Source: Cytophagales bacterium
Lineage (GTDB): Bacteria; Bacteroidota; Bacteroidia; Cytophagales; Spirosomataceae
NCBI GenBank assembly: GCA_013298215.1
Contig: JAAFKE010000007.1
Span: forward strand, 1-64,000
DNA: 64,000 nucleotides
Direction: 5' to 3'
The position numbers were made by a program, and so were the translations under genes. The notes under the pieces were generated by a model. That model searched no databases. It was not told the origin of the DNA and was given only the letters and a program-made list of their open reading frames with translations. How positions within the stretch are numbered: position 1 is the first letter of the stretch; every line of letters begins with the position of its first letter. Shown piece by piece: positions 13,854 through 30,759 of the stretch.

Positions 13854-13908
13854 AAAAAAACATCGACCCGCAAACTGCGAGCCGATGAATGAACAAGCTA
13901 ACCTATGA
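13854..13908 (+). repeat. A-tract/hairpin/CTAACCTATGA leader-like element, copy A
   Basis: An A7 tract (13854-13860) precedes a 27-base hairpin (13861-13887; arms of 12 around an AAC loop). After ten bases comes CTAACCTATGA (13898-13908). The ATG at 13905 opens an eight-codon frame ending at 13931. The layout and spacing match copy B at 14528 exactly. The hairpin is better paired in the minus-strand transcript, where it would be followed by T7 and could act as a terminator, but no minus-strand gene ends here. Confidence 0.6.
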
Positions 13909-13932
13909 CGATTTTATTTTTTAAAATTTGAT

Positions 13933-13940
13933 TAGATTTG
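13933..13940 (+). promoter_or_regulatory. -7 box of the MazEF-like operon
   Basis: TAGATTTG fits TAnnTTTG and lies 19 bases before the antitoxin ATG. It is inside a 21-base block (13928-13948) that recurs with two mismatches at 17684-17704, before the VapBC-like pair. Confidence 0.5.
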
Positions 13941-13959
13941 TTAAAAAAATAAAAAAACA

Positions 13960-14160
13960 ATGGAATTAACTTATCGCCTCAATAGCCAAGAAATGAATGG
14001 GGCATTTCTTGATTCAATCAAAAACTTGTTTGATAGACAAGACATAGAAATAACCATCAGGCTACTCAACGACTTAGACCAAACCACCATACTTGCTCAA
14101 AATACGTTGGCCGAGGAATGGGACAGTACCGAAGACCAACGTTGGGACAAAATACTGTAA
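13960..14160 (+). CDS. Antitoxin of a MazEF/PemIK-like pair
   Basis: The 66-residue acidic protein begins MELTYRLNSQEMNGAFLDSIK and ends in a cluster of acidic and Trp residues (LAEEWDSTEDQRWDKIL), the tail typical of small antitoxins that block PemK/MazF-type RNases. The N-terminal half predicts strand-helix content consistent with a short DNA-binding or dimerisation region, but no AbrB or RHH motif is clear. The toxin frame starts six bases after its stop, so the two are co-transcribed from the 13933 promoter. The antitoxin frame is intact although the toxin frame is broken. Confidence 0.7.
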   Translation: MELTYRLNSQEMNGAFLDSIKNLFDRQDIEITIRLLNDLDQTTILAQNTLAEEWDSTEDQRWDKIL

Positions 14161-14165
14161 CCACT

Positions 14166-14506
14166 ATGCCAAATTATAAACAAGGCGATATTGTGTGGTT
14201 GTAAACTTCCCGTTTACAGACATCAGCCAAACTAAAAAACGCCCCGCGTTGGTGGTTTCCAACGATACTGTCAATCGAACTGGCGATTATCTTTTGGTTC
14301 AGATAACAAGCCAAGTGAAAAACGATGGCTTGTCGCTCCCTGTTTCTACAACCGATTTTGTAAATAATGCCCTGCCATTGGCAAGTTTTGTTCGGCTACA
14401 TAAGCTATTCTTGCTGAACGAGTCGCTGATTATCAAAAAAGCAACTGCCGTTGCCCCAACATTTTATCAAGAGTTAGTCCGTAAGATAATAACATTGATT
14501 GAATGA
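14166..14506 (+). pseudogene. MazF/PemK-family toxin, frame-shifted after codon 11
   Basis: From ATG 14166 the frame reads MPNYKQGDIVW and then hits TAA at 14202. Removing the two T bases at 14199-14200 would join it to VNFPFTDISQTKKRPALVV, the classical MazF/PemK core, which then runs intact to the stop at 14506 (NRTGDYLLVQITSQ and KIITLIE included). MazF family toxins are ribosome-independent mRNA endonucleases. A GTG at 14195 could restart translation but would lose the conserved first strand (QGDIV). The gene is probably an inactivated toxin; a sequencing error or an unusual start cannot be ruled out. The rest of the coding frame shows no other damage, suggesting a recent lesion. Confidence 0.75.
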
Positions 14507-14527
14507 TTTTTTGAGTACTTATCGTAT

Positions 14528-14584
14528 AAAAAAAAACATCGGCCCGCAAACTGCGAGCCGATGAGTGAACAATCTAACCTATGA
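14528..14584 (+). repeat. A-tract/hairpin/CTAACCTATGA leader-like element, copy B
   Basis: An A9 tract (14528-14536) is followed by a 27-base hairpin (14537-14563) differing from copy A by one base. A ten-base spacer leads to CTAACCTATGA (14574-14584). The ATG at 14581 opens a 65-codon frame beginning MKKFVRLK that runs through palindromic DNA and looks non-genuine. Together with copy A it brackets the MazEF-like pair. Confidence 0.6.
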
Positions 14585-27076: not shown

Positions 27077-27810
27077 TAGTTATAAATCGGCAGGGTTATT
27101 GAAATGAAGGGCGTGGCTTGGCGATACCTGAAACGGTCGTTGTTGTTGGGTAGGTTTTTTTCGGCGGTGTGGTATTCGGAGGTAGAAAAGATATACCCAA
27201 ACTTGACCCCCACTTGCTGGCCCAGCCAAACGCGGGCATATACTTCGGCGTTTAGGTTGCCCAGGTTATTGTCGCCGAAGAGCCTCAAGTTTCCCAGTCC
27301 AGTGCTGGCCGTTTGCGGCGAGTTGTTCCATTTTATCGACTCGTTGGTAGCCAACGTACCAGCGCGGGTGCCCGCCAAGGCCAAACCAAATACGTCGGCA
27401 TTGGCACCAATATTAAACTTACCAACTTGCAGTTGCAAGGCCACCATAAAGTTGAGCGATGTAAGTTGGGCTTTGGGCATTTGCAGGGTGTCTATGTTGG
27501 CCCCCACCAGAGGCGCACCAATGCTACTGAGCCCTCCTTTGTTGGTAGTAAGGCGAGCCGGCGCGGTGATGAAGGGAACGTCTTGGCCCATAAACCGCGC
27601 CATTCTCACGCCCCAGCCAACCTGCAAAAGCCCCCGCTTGTCGATTTCTAAAAGCTGGGCGTAAGAAATAGCTACAACGGCATTTTTTTGTTTAACGCCA
27701 AAGCCCAGGTCCACGTGCGACATTACCTTGGACAGCCTTTGGGTTTGAGAAAATGAGGTGTTGTGCAACAGCAGTAATGCCAGTAGTGGGATTAAAAAGA
27801 TTCTTTTCAT
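27076..27810 (-). CDS. Secreted outer-membrane-like protein of unknown function
   Basis: The 244-residue product has a signal peptide (MKRIFLIPLLALLLLHNTSFSQ) and a run of alternating hydrophobic strands ending ATPFISITLPIYN, whose terminal aromatic pattern resembles outer-membrane barrels. No family was recognised. Translation is coupled to the downstream MutS-like gene by a one-base overlap. A TATCTTTG -7 box precedes it at 27836-27843. Confidence 0.6.
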   Translation of the reverse strand: MKRIFLIPLLALLLLHNTSFSQTQRLSKVMSHVDLGFGVKQKNAVVAISYAQLLEIDKRGLLQVGWGVRMARFMGQDVPFITAPARLTTNKGGLSSIGAPLVGANIDTLQMPKAQLTSLNFMVALQLQVGKFNIGANADVFGLALAGTRAGTLATNESIKWNNSPQTASTGLGNLRLFGDNNLGNLNAEVYARVWLGQQVGVKFGYIFSTSEYHTAEKNLPNNNDRFRYRQATPFISITLPIYN

Positions 27811-27835
27811 GGAGTAGATTGATATAAGTGATGAC

Positions 27836-27843
27836 CAAAGATA
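27836..27843 (-). promoter_or_regulatory. -7 box for the barrel-protein/MutS-like operon
   Basis: The minus strand reads TATCTTTG, matching TAnnTTTG, about 25 bases before the ATG at 27810. The hairpin of element copy C lies immediately upstream. Confidence 0.5.
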
Positions 27844-27848
27844 ACAAA

Positions 27849-27897
27849 AAAAGCCAGTGCGAATCGCGCTGGCTTTTCGCCCTAACCTAACCTATGA
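27849..27897 (+). repeat. A-tract/hairpin/CTAACCTATGA leader-like element, copy C
   Basis: A 29-base hairpin (27849-27877; 13-base arms AAAAGCCAGTGCG and CGCGCTGGCTTTT around AAT) is preceded by A residues and followed after nine bases by CTAACCTATGA (27887-27897). The stem sequence differs completely from copies A and B while shape, spacing and tail are kept. ATG 27894 opens a 13-codon frame (MRKNLQSLFYFDL) ending at 27935. The hairpin has T runs on both strands and could terminate either way. Confidence 0.6.
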
Positions 27898-27935
27898 GAA
27901 AAAACTTACAATCGCTGTTTTATTTTGATTTGTAA

Positions 27936-28202
27936 GGAACTGCAAAATTAGTGTAAATAAAGGTGCTATCTTAGCGTAGAACTACTTGTTTTGCTACCGT
28001 TTAATAAATTTACTGGGCTTGCGGATTTTACTTTTTTGGGTAGGTAAATATACGTGGTAGCGTTTTTAATCGGTTGATAATTAGCGCGTAATACTTTTTT
28101 GTTTTCTCACAAACAAAAAATAATTTGCTTGTAGAGAAGGTTCTGACCTACATTTAGCCTTTGTATTTAGTACTTATTTATAACCCCCAAATTTTTACTA
28201 AC
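27936..28202. other. AT-rich intergenic region
   Basis: Nothing coding is visible. TACATTTAG near 28149 and TAGCCTTTG near 28155 are imperfect -7 boxes that could serve the following gene. The rest shows no repeat or hairpin of note. Confidence 0.4.
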
Positions 28203-28598
28203 ATGAAAGACCAAGACCGTAAGTTTCCTGATTTGAAGCAAGCTGGGCAGCTCTATAGCCGAAAAGAAATAGATGGTTTTGTGAAAGACCACGACGACCC
28301 GTCGAGAACCAGCGAGGAGTTTAGCAAAGAAATATTGATGAAGCTCCTAAACCTCCCCAACTGTAGTGGCCTGCGGGTATACTACGGCAAGGCCCTCGAA
28401 ACCGAAGCCAACGGCCCCTACGAGCCGTCGCGGATGAGCGCGAAGGGTACTAAAAAAGGCAAAAGGCTGTTTTTTGTGCCGATTGATGCCAATTACCGAG
28501 AGATCGAATTTTCGCTCACCGCCGACGGCCTCAAAGATGGCGGCGATGGGCGCGGCGCGGGTAATGGAGTACCGATACCACCTTACGGAAGACCTTAA
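28203..28598 (+). CDS. Hypothetical protein, 131 residues
   Basis: The start at ATG 28203 gives MKDQDRKFPDLKQAGQLYSRKE; the upstream extension of the frame is AT-rich and has no plausible start context. The protein is hydrophilic, with SEEFSKEILMKLLNLPNCSG followed by a strand-rich region (LRVYYGKALE, KRLFFVPIDANY) and a Gly/Pro-rich end. No family was recognised. It is followed after eight bases by a seven-helix membrane protein and then a two-component pair, so it may belong to that signalling operon. Confidence 0.6.
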   Translation: MKDQDRKFPDLKQAGQLYSRKEIDGFVKDHDDPSRTSEEFSKEILMKLLNLPNCSGLRVYYGKALETEANGPYEPSRMSAKGTKKGKRLFFVPIDANYREIEFSLTADGLKDGGDGRGAGNGVPIPPYGRP

Positions 28599-28606
28599 CG
28601 AGCAAT

Positions 28607-29305
28607 ATGAATTCCAACACAGTAAAATTGTTGTGTTACCTGTCTGATTTTACGATCTTACTGCCCGTCGTTGTCTTACTCATTCGGTGGCGCTGCCTCA
28701 AAAACCTAATGAACTACATCGTTGCCTACGTGGCCGTACTGGTAGTTCGCAACGCGGTCGCTATCTTAATTGGGGAGTATTTCGACTACAAACTCAACAA
28801 TATTTTTTATTACAACCTGGCCAATGCAATCACTTTTTACGTGGTCATTGTGCTCAATTATTGGTTGGTTTTCAACGTAGCATACCGAAAACTGTTTAAG
28901 TTTTTTGGCGTTGTGTTTTCGGTATGCTGCGTAATAGATGTCTTCAACGGGTCGCTTTCTGACCTGCACACCAGCAGATGGGGGGTGTTTACGTACCCGG
29001 CCAGTGTTATTCTAATTATTCTGACGTTATTGTTTTACTTTTATGATTTTATCAAGGGAATGCGCGTGTTTCAGATCACGACGTACCCTTTTTTTTGGTT
29101 CAATGCGGGCGCACTACTTTTCTACTCGGGGAGTTCGCTGATTCATATATTAACCTCCGAAACACTTAACCAACCGCCCGACGTTGCCCTAAATTATTGG
29201 CTACTTGAGGCAGTTTTGGCTATTTTCTTCAACTGCATGATCGCGGTTTCGTTGCTATATTGTAAAAACGCAGAGCTTATAGAAGTCAAACATTCGCCAC
29301 AATAA
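28607..29305 (+). CDS. Seven-helix membrane protein linked to a two-component system
   Basis: The 232-residue protein has seven hydrophobic segments (approximately 10-30, 38-57, 65-92, 101-118, 126-147, 156-178 and 191-214) and short loops, with no signal peptide and no catalytic motif. It lies 12 bases before a histidine kinase gene whose product has only one short membrane anchor and no sensor domain. A likely reading is that this protein is the membrane sensor or signal receiver for that kinase. Its family was not recognised. Confidence 0.65.
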   Translation: MNSNTVKLLCYLSDFTILLPVVVLLIRWRCLKNLMNYIVAYVAVLVVRNAVAILIGEYFDYKLNNIFYYNLANAITFYVVIVLNYWLVFNVAYRKLFKFFGVVFSVCCVIDVFNGSLSDLHTSRWGVFTYPASVILIILTLLFYFYDFIKGMRVFQITTYPFFWFNAGALLFYSGSSLIHILTSETLNQPPDVALNYWLLEAVLAIFFNCMIAVSLLYCKNAELIEVKHSPQ

Positions 29306-29317
29306 ATACATTGACTC

Positions 29318-30109
29318 GTGGAAATATTCTTTGCTTCGTTGGCCATGGTATTTATGGCCATCTTTGTGATTGTCTTCATTATTTACTACCAGCGCAAGCA
29401 AATTCAGCAGCAGATCAACGACCGACAACGCGAAACTGAGTTCCAGCAGCAGCTTTTAGAAGTGGCCCTCCAAAGCACCGAAGCCGAACGTCGGCGCATT
29501 GCCCAAGACCTGCACGACGAAATCGGCGCGTCGCTATCGATCGTCAAATTGGGCATGGGTTCGTTGGCAAACCAATTAAATGATGCCCAACAGCGCGTCG
29601 TTTTGACCGATCTGCGTGGTGCAATGGAAGAGGCCATCTCAAACGTGAGGCGCATTAGCCGCGACCTGGTGCCTATTACCCTGGAGCGTTTTGGGCTGTC
29701 GGCGGCGCTTCAAGAATTTGCCGCCCGCAGCAACCACTCGGCGGCACTCCACATTACCTACACCCACGAGGGCCAAATGAGCCTGCGCTACAGTGCCAAA
29801 GTAGAACTGATGTTGTACAGAATTGCCCAAGAACTGGTCAATAATGCCATTAAACACGCGGAAGCTAAAAATATTCACATAAATTTTACGACATTGCCCG
29901 CCAATTCCGTTCTCGAAGTGCACGACGACGGACGCGGTTTTGTACTCAGCGAGGTTACGCGCCAAGCCAACCGTGGGCTGGGTTTGCAGGGAATTGAGGC
30001 CAGAATCAGGGTTATAAACGCCACCGTTAGCTACAACACCGCGCACGGGGCGGGCTGTAAGGCCACAATAGACGTAAAAATGGATACCTTGCCAATCACC
30101 AAACAATGA
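29318..30109 (+). CDS. Sensor histidine kinase, HisKA_3 (NarL/LytS-like partner) type
   Basis: Translation starts at GTG 29318. The 263-residue protein has one N-terminal helix (about 4-23), a coiled-coil linker and the dimerisation/phosphoacceptor helix RRIAQDLHDEIGASLS with His66. The ATPase part shows N box ELVNNAIKHA (172-181), G1 DDGRGF (203-208) and G2 GLGLQGIE (220-227). The absence of any extracellular loop means it cannot sense alone; the upstream 7TM protein may supply the input. It overlaps the response regulator by four bases (ATGA). Confidence 0.92.
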   Translation: MEIFFASLAMVFMAIFVIVFIIYYQRKQIQQQINDRQRETEFQQQLLEVALQSTEAERRRIAQDLHDEIGASLSIVKLGMGSLANQLNDAQQRVVLTDLRGAMEEAISNVRRISRDLVPITLERFGLSAALQEFAARSNHSAALHITYTHEGQMSLRYSAKVELMLYRIAQELVNNAIKHAEAKNIHINFTTLPANSVLEVHDDGRGFVLSEVTRQANRGLGLQGIEARIRVINATVSYNTAHGAGCKATIDVKMDTLPITKQ

Positions 30110-30759
30110 ACAAAATCAGAATTGCCCTGGCCGACGACCACGCACTTTTTAGGAAAGGTATGATGGCGATGCTCCAGACCATCGATGACTTTGAGATCGT
30201 TGGCGATGCTGCCAATGGCAAAGAGCTCATCAATATTATTCCCCACGTGCGGCCCGACGTGGTGCTGCTCGACCTCCAAATGCCAGTTATGGACGGCGTT
30301 CAAACGGCGGAACTCATCCACGCGCGTTTTCCTACCATAAAAATGGTTGTTGTGTCGATGCACGAAGAAGACCGTTTTATTATTCACCTCCTCGAAAAGG
30401 GAGTCCACGGATACATTCTCAAAGACAGCGACCCCGAAGAGGTAGAGAACGCCATTAGACGGGTGTTGGACGACGGTTTTTATTATTCAGACCTCGTAGC
30501 CAAGGCCATGCACCGCAAGGTTGTTACGCGCCCGGGCCAGAAACAACCGTTGCTTTTTAATAGCAAACTACAGATTTCGCAGCGCGAGTTGGAGGTGCTC
30601 CAGTTTACGTGCCAGGGGCTTTCGACCACCGAAATAGGCGAAAAAATGTTTGTTAGTCCGCGTACTGTGGAGGGGCACCGGCTGCGGTTGTTAGAAAAAA
30701 CCGAAACCAAAAACGTGGCCGCGCTTGTGGCCTACGCCTTCAAAAATGACCTGATTTAA
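30106..30759 (+). CDS. NarL/FixJ-family response regulator
   Basis: The 217-residue protein has a receiver domain with Asp10/Asp11, phosphoacceptor Asp56 (LLDLQMP) and Lys106 (YILKDS), then a LuxR-type helix-turn-helix at about 150-210 (SQRELEVLQFTCQGLSTTEI, then VSPRTVEGHR). It is phosphorylated by the kinase encoded just upstream and binds DNA as a dimer. Its targets are unknown; autoregulation of the 28.2-30.8 kb operon is possible. It ends convergent with pyrE, overlapping by four bases. Confidence 0.94.
   Translation: MNKIRIALADDHALFRKGMMAMLQTIDDFEIVGDAANGKELINIIPHVRPDVVLLDLQMPVMDGVQTAELIHARFPTIKMVVVSMHEEDRFIIHLLEKGVHGYILKDSDPEEVENAIRRVLDDGFYYSDLVAKAMHRKVVTRPGQKQPLLFNSKLQISQRELEVLQFTCQGLSTTEIGEKMFVSPRTVEGHRLRLLEKTETKNVAALVAYAFKNDLI

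Follow-up and report, generated by a model that had tools for sequence, protein, structure and literature searches.

A probable minus-strand small RNA gene, conserved among Spirosomataceae, beside a divergent two-component operon

In the 64,000-nucleotide stretch of Cytophagales DNA analysed here (the window), a hairpin with a short tail occurs in three copies, A, B and C. Copy C probably forms the 3′ half of a small RNA (sRNA) that is encoded alone and acts in trans. This RNA would be transcribed from the minus strand, activated by the two-component system encoded divergently beside it, and paired with the translation starts of other mRNAs. The anatomy, the conservation and the synteny of this locus were established from the sequences of the window and of relatives.

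The hairpin of copy C, with arms at 27849-27862 and 27864-27877, and its tail CTAACCTATGA at 27887-27897 are present as originally predicted. The number of copies was also confirmed, as CTAACCTATGA was found three times in the 3.55 Mb genome, each time within the window and on the same strand, and the pattern read backwards was found nowhere in the genome. Copies A and B form a 55-nt direct repeat with 95% identity, 676 nt apart. Copy C resembles them in its poly-A, in the shape of its hairpin, in the spacer and in the 11-mer; of the sequence of the sRNA gene of copy C, only the core is found in A and B. The features are as follows.

13854..13908, minus strand: copy A, core TCATAGGTTAG and terminator (terminator-like-site scan, repeat comparison, minus-strand sequence)
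14530..14584, minus strand: copy B, core TCATAGGTTAG and terminator (terminator-like-site scan, repeat comparison, minus-strand sequence)
27836..27843, minus strand: TATCTTTG box, which may be a promoter belonging to the next gene downstream on this strand, 27079-27810 (sequence)
27846..27938, minus strand: candidate small RNA gene, about 93 nt (relatives keep the box, the core and the terminator)
27849..27877, minus strand: intrinsic terminator hairpin, the hairpin of the original prediction, followed by a T-run at 27852-27846 (pair changes in relatives)
27885..27898, minus strand: core CTCATAGGTTAGGT, the complement of the originally described tail, candidate seed (conserved in relatives)
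27943..27950, minus strand: -7 promoter box TAATTTTG of the small RNA (consensus TAnnTTTG, PMC7366714)
27974..27985, minus strand: palindromic activator-like site GTAGTTCTACGC, separated by 23 nt from the -7 box downstream of it (spacing in relatives)
28203..28598, plus strand: first gene (gene 1) of the divergent operon, 131 aa, without a Pfam/NCBIfam family (23 of the 35 scanned loci have a frame of similar size, place and motif)
28607..29305, plus strand: gene 2, 232 aa, membrane-like as judged from sequence, no known family and no Pfam or NCBIfam match (22 of the 35 scanned loci have a frame of similar size and place)
29318..30109, plus strand: histidine kinase, HisKA_3 and HATPase_c (domain matches)
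30106..30759, plus strand: NarL/LuxR-type response regulator, Response_reg and GerE, candidate activator of the small RNA (domain matches)

As a side observation, the repeats A and B flank a small module (13854-14584), which contains a 66-aa frame without a clear family and a PemK/MazF-like toxin gene. The reading frame of the toxin gene seems disrupted near its start.

Read on the minus strand, the elements of copy C follow in the order of site, box, core, spacer and terminator. In this reading, the poly-A that lies 5′ of the plus-strand hairpin becomes a T-run behind the hairpin, and a run of at least 7 T follows all three hairpins in this direction. The invariant core of the RNA, CUCAUAGGUUAGGU, lies just before the terminator. 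The NANNTTTG box and the upstream site point to a promoter of its own, by sequence only; TAnnTTTG is the published -7 consensus according to PMC7366714. The start of the RNA was predicted from the -7 box, with a margin of about ±3 nt, and its end was taken as the end of the T-run. The predicted RNA has neither ATG nor GTG in the minus-strand sequence of copy C. A scan for minus-strand terminator-like sites listed A and B; C was absent from the list. The hairpin would also be able to end plus-strand transcripts, and wobble pairs were not decisive as a test of the strand, with 14 G-T versus 17 A-C cells in the aligned loci. The minus-strand gene downstream has the TATCTTTG box of its own, and its match to an outer-membrane barrel was only sub-threshold.

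Using a strict script on 60 SusC loci and the window (382 kb), the core was detected just upstream of 3 of 69 terminators, and all three are in the window. This result indicates that the association of core and hairpin is beyond chance, and it rules out the core as a general feature of terminators.

The original view of copy C as a selected RNA element, in which the structure is kept while the stem sequence varies, was supported by the relatives. Forty-seven loci (40 distinct rows), a hand-picked set from which most near-identical copies were left out, were aligned to the model at a stricter threshold, which kept out opposite-strand hairpin matches. In this alignment, which was fitted to the structure being scored, 95.4% of the stem cells were paired, and 10 of the 12 terminator pairs were changed on both sides among the 40 distinct sequences. 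The covariation score was 0.441 versus 0.135 for shuffles, none of the 500 shuffles was as high, and sliding the partner by 1-3 columns left 40.7-61.4% of the cells paired. Of 50 distinct loci, 47 have a NANNTTTG box at a distance of 40-95 nt upstream of the core. When the sequence above the box was compared with GTRTTTMTRCGC, a consensus drawn by eye from part of the same loci, many of them close relatives, the best match ended 23 nt above the box in 41 of 47 loci, 24 nt in four, and 22 and 25 nt in one each. CATAGGTTAGGT is present in all 47 aligned loci, partly by selection, and the core is weakly paired in some single-sequence and alignment folds. The 15 C-type sequences align with an invariant CTCATAGGTTAGGT; all of them were sought with the 11-mer, and therefore this invariance is partly circular. 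In the 5′ part, eight distinct sequences of Larkinella have a stem-loop with compensatory changes, nine of the Runella group (L074 included) have a predicted stem with hardly any, and the prediction gave no stem for eight sequences from a Spirosoma subgroup.

The element belongs to a family, as originally supposed, since it is present in relatives. A pattern of AAAAA, 26-50 nt and the 11-mer matched in 84 of 200 family genomes, and the reversed control was non-zero in 23 of 200 (hand count). The bare 11-mer was not enriched genome-wide, a hand tally over 59 genomes giving 111 places for it and 112 for its reversed control, so that the neighbourhood of the terminator is what is special. Two groups of context were seen among the relatives, namely the C-type locus, and the 3′ ends of unrelated genes carrying the same core. 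Model R1 was built from 10 of the 15 C-type sequences, leaving out a near-duplicate (L071) and four sequences whose stems were shifted by MAFFT. In the 200 family genomes, the best E-value of R1 was 3.1e-16; the match in the own genome (27846-27913 of the window, minus strand) had 2.1e-10, with the same sequence being among the ten of the model. About 68 of the 200 genomes had a match at E ≤ 1e-5 (hand count), of which at least six (G003, G013, G016, G083, G115 and G139) were 3′-UTR or other matches away from the C-type locus. Not all genomes of the family have the RNA. At E ≤ 0.01 the count was 169 of 200, which overstates the family because the weaker matches include bare terminators and other 3′ UTRs. 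In the order, 16 of 291 genomes matched at E ≤ 1e-5, all in family f1. The covariance model and the scan of relatives, which had been suggested at the outset, gave further matches and covariation; the adjoining operon encodes a two-component system and not a TonB receptor.

Scanning named genomes with a pattern yielded 35 loci, of which 33 are the C-type locus; the other two (L164 and L189) are matches inside unrelated genes. The 33 loci carry the labels Spirosoma, Rudanella and Fibrella, which we take to be Spirosomataceae, as well as Larkinella, Runella and Fibrivirga; further labels are those of MAGs (Spirosomataceae, Cytophagia and Cytophagales) and, once, Flavobacterium. Larkinella, Runella and Fibrivirga are placed in the Spirosomataceae by NCBI taxonomy. 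The record labelled Flavobacterium sp. SUN052 (L182, NZ_JAPQNS010000003.1) may be mislabelled, because its locus is close to the Rudanella form.

Other motifs and cores before terminators were also observed. A second motif, ATATTGGTGTC, with T-rich sequence before it, was seen at L253, L256, L259 and L262, and in the own genome at L243 (G000:C4:82603-82671). It follows genes for similar proteins (561-562 aa) in three of four relatives, and is preceded by TTTC in two of five copies, giving TTTCATATTGGTGTC. Cores of the CATAGGTT type stand directly after stop codons and before terminators at L245, L246, L254, L255 and L260, from several genera, and three of these five follow genes judged from sequence to be SusD-like.

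On the plus strand, the final ATG of the three tails opens frames of 8, 65 and 13 codons, as originally claimed, and none of these is a proper gene. However, the absence of a proper gene does not extend further, since the four-gene operon, which has no internal stops, starts at 28203, 306 nt past the tail of copy C. Copy C is not orphaned either, as the operon beside it is complete and its synteny is kept. Gene 1 and/or gene 2, found in relatives by a script using size, place and a simple motif, is divergent from the RNA in 25 of the 33 true loci, with L172 and L173 resting on this script. Six loci are cut off on the operon side (L167, L168, L176, L180, L183 and L185), and L181 has a probable gene 1. 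In L170, the same locus as L074, the RNA is present and the operon is not beside it; an 886-aa outer-membrane-like gene is found instead, ending about 190 nt upstream on the RNA's own strand. The gene 1 family often ends in CPxxC, a motif that the copy in the window does not have.

The position of the conserved site just above the -7 box, together with the divergent regulator, suggests how the RNA could be controlled. The response regulator of the divergent operon probably binds the palindromic site, and would thereby activate the sRNA. Because the core is complementary to ACCUAACCUAUGAG, which resembles a start codon and its surroundings, CUCAUAGGUUAGGU is most likely a seed that would cover the start codons of target mRNAs.

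Candidate targets were searched with the core. In the own genome, the 17-nt complement with up to 3 mismatches was found at seven places (control, 3): C, B and five others, two of which are exactly at start codons, of accA (named by TIGR00513) and of a 154-aa protein. Among 29 genomes, the pairing with accA was strongest in the own genome, at -23.7, and reached -19.2 in G064; it was -8.1 to -17.3 in the other genomes taken as carrying the RNA and -5.6 to -17.9 in eight taken as being without it. In G103 the position of the start was wrong. Since the pairing is not generally kept among the 29 genomes, accA was rejected as a conserved target. With the start taken as the first ATG of each frame, SusC-like starts of the own genome paired with the core better than other starts, and none of 61 control seeds was as good (18 versus 85 starts). 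This result may rest on the U-run, because shuffling of the letters breaks the U-run, which alone pairs with ATGAAAAA. In four relatives the same difference between SusC and other starts was not significant, with 24 of 100 controls (30 versus 44 starts) and, for the SusC energies alone, 5 of 100. For the 3′-UTR cores, no motif complementary to the core was found at their own SusCD start in three operons (L263, L264 and L265).

Hfq was not found in any of 15 family genomes, in a search with positive controls, and RRM_1 proteins gave no match in the own genome, although the same search was positive in Bacteroides. Thus, no known chaperone of these two types was found, and the RNA would act alone or with another chaperone.

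RNAs of the CsrB/RsmZ type, under the control of GacA, titrate or recruit an RNA-binding protein. The present locus resembles them in joining a LuxR-type regulator with a small RNA that has a repeated short motif, which is AGGUUAGG here and ANGGA in those RNAs. It is conceivable, though on our analysis rather unlikely, that the core is in the same manner a protein-binding site, through which the RNA would titrate or recruit a protein by its AGGUUAGG repeats. The motif is repeated in window C, AGGUUAGGUUAGGG, the core stands before the terminators of several unrelated genes in relatives, and the regulator scores with the NarL and GacA models among others, below their cut-offs. In B. thetaiotaomicron, RbpB prefers GUAGGAUA according to PMC12119571, which also names Csr. 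Against a binding site of this kind stand the lack of RRM_1 and Hfq matches in the genomes searched, and the presence of an anti-start codon within the CUCAU of the conserved stretch.

It is improbable that the element is merely a conserved, partly bidirectional intrinsic terminator, the RNA having no function of its own. In many loci the other flank has a convergent plus-strand gene, presumably rfbA-like, which ends just before the hairpin, and some opposite-strand matches of the model cover the hairpin, as expected for such a terminator. However, neither the core nor a promoter box at a constant distance from an upstream site is needed by a terminator, and the compensatory changes in the 5′ stem of Larkinella also argue for more than termination. 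In addition, the window and Runella retain the element, although their other flank has a gene on the RNA's strand in place of rfbA.

The element was originally described as a 5′ leader on the plus strand. Such a leader, or a leader peptide, controlling the downstream two-component operon is very improbable, even though the operon starts about 300 nt downstream on that strand and the tail holds an ATG. The plus-strand frames range from 2 to 65 codons in the C-type loci inspected and in A and B, and have no common peptide, many relatives having only Met-Arg-stop, so that a leader peptide is ruled out and the ATG does not appear to be a start. The box, the site and the longer T-run are all on the minus strand, and copy C is most likely the 3′ end of a minus-strand transcript. 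The further idea of an orphaned leader of a TonB-dependent receptor gene is hardly credible, because none of the C-type loci examined has a receptor gene after the tail on the plus strand, the SusC test in four genomes was negative and the conserved synteny with another operon speaks against a cis leader, despite the pairing of SusC starts in the own genome and the presence of CTAACCTATGA at the start of two genes judged from sequence to be SusC-like among 29 relatives' loci, neither of C type.

Rfam at gathering score gave no match in the window, except tRNA elsewhere in it, or in 15 relative loci, and at a relaxed threshold 27780-28210 gave only 15-21 bits, far below the gathering scores. 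No plasmid DNA similarity was found. Among the top-ranked titles of the open-access literature on small RNAs of Spirosoma, Runella, Larkinella and Cytophagales, nothing resembled the copy C RNA. OmrA and OmrB of Enterobacterales are controlled by OmpR and have TonB-receptor targets. The copy C RNA is like them in being tied to a two-component regulator, by which it would be controlled, and no sequence relation is claimed; unlike OmrA/OmrB, which need an RNA chaperone (PMC12692685), it is found where Hfq was not.

The nearest in kind to the copy C RNA is FopS/GibS of Bacteroides. According to PMC11697453, FopS binds the translation starts of SusC mRNAs and represses SusC translation. It has 14 paralogues in one genome, and one FopS originates from a 3′ UTR. 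FopS is found in association with RbpB, an RRM protein, and is said to be deposited in Rfam; the Rfam copy searched here, which gave no match, may or may not hold it. The FopS/GibS RNAs described there are Bacteroidota sRNAs with a single-stranded conserved seed and a Rho-independent terminator; the predicted copy C RNA has such a terminator and a candidate seed, and its core is also found in 3′ UTRs of relatives. Unlike the FopS described there, one stand-alone gene was found here, the core adjoins the terminator and not the 5′ end, a conserved activator-like site lies upstream, and the own genome has no RRM_1 match.

We tentatively consider, as a less likely extension of the sRNA reading, that UCAUAGGUUAG before a terminator is a shared address, by which the stand-alone two-component RNA and scattered 3′-UTR ends would form a network of competing RNAs without an Hfq- or RbpB-type protein. 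If true, 3′-UTR ends after SusD-like and other genes would share an anti-start-codon core with the stand-alone RNA. In the literature consulted, most of what is known about regulatory RNAs of Bacteroidota comes from gut Bacteroides. The locus in Spirosoma, Runella and Larkinella, with its predicted promoter, regulator and seed, makes the action of an sRNA directly testable in such genomes, where Hfq was found in none of the 15 searched and, in the own genome, no RRM_1 protein was found.
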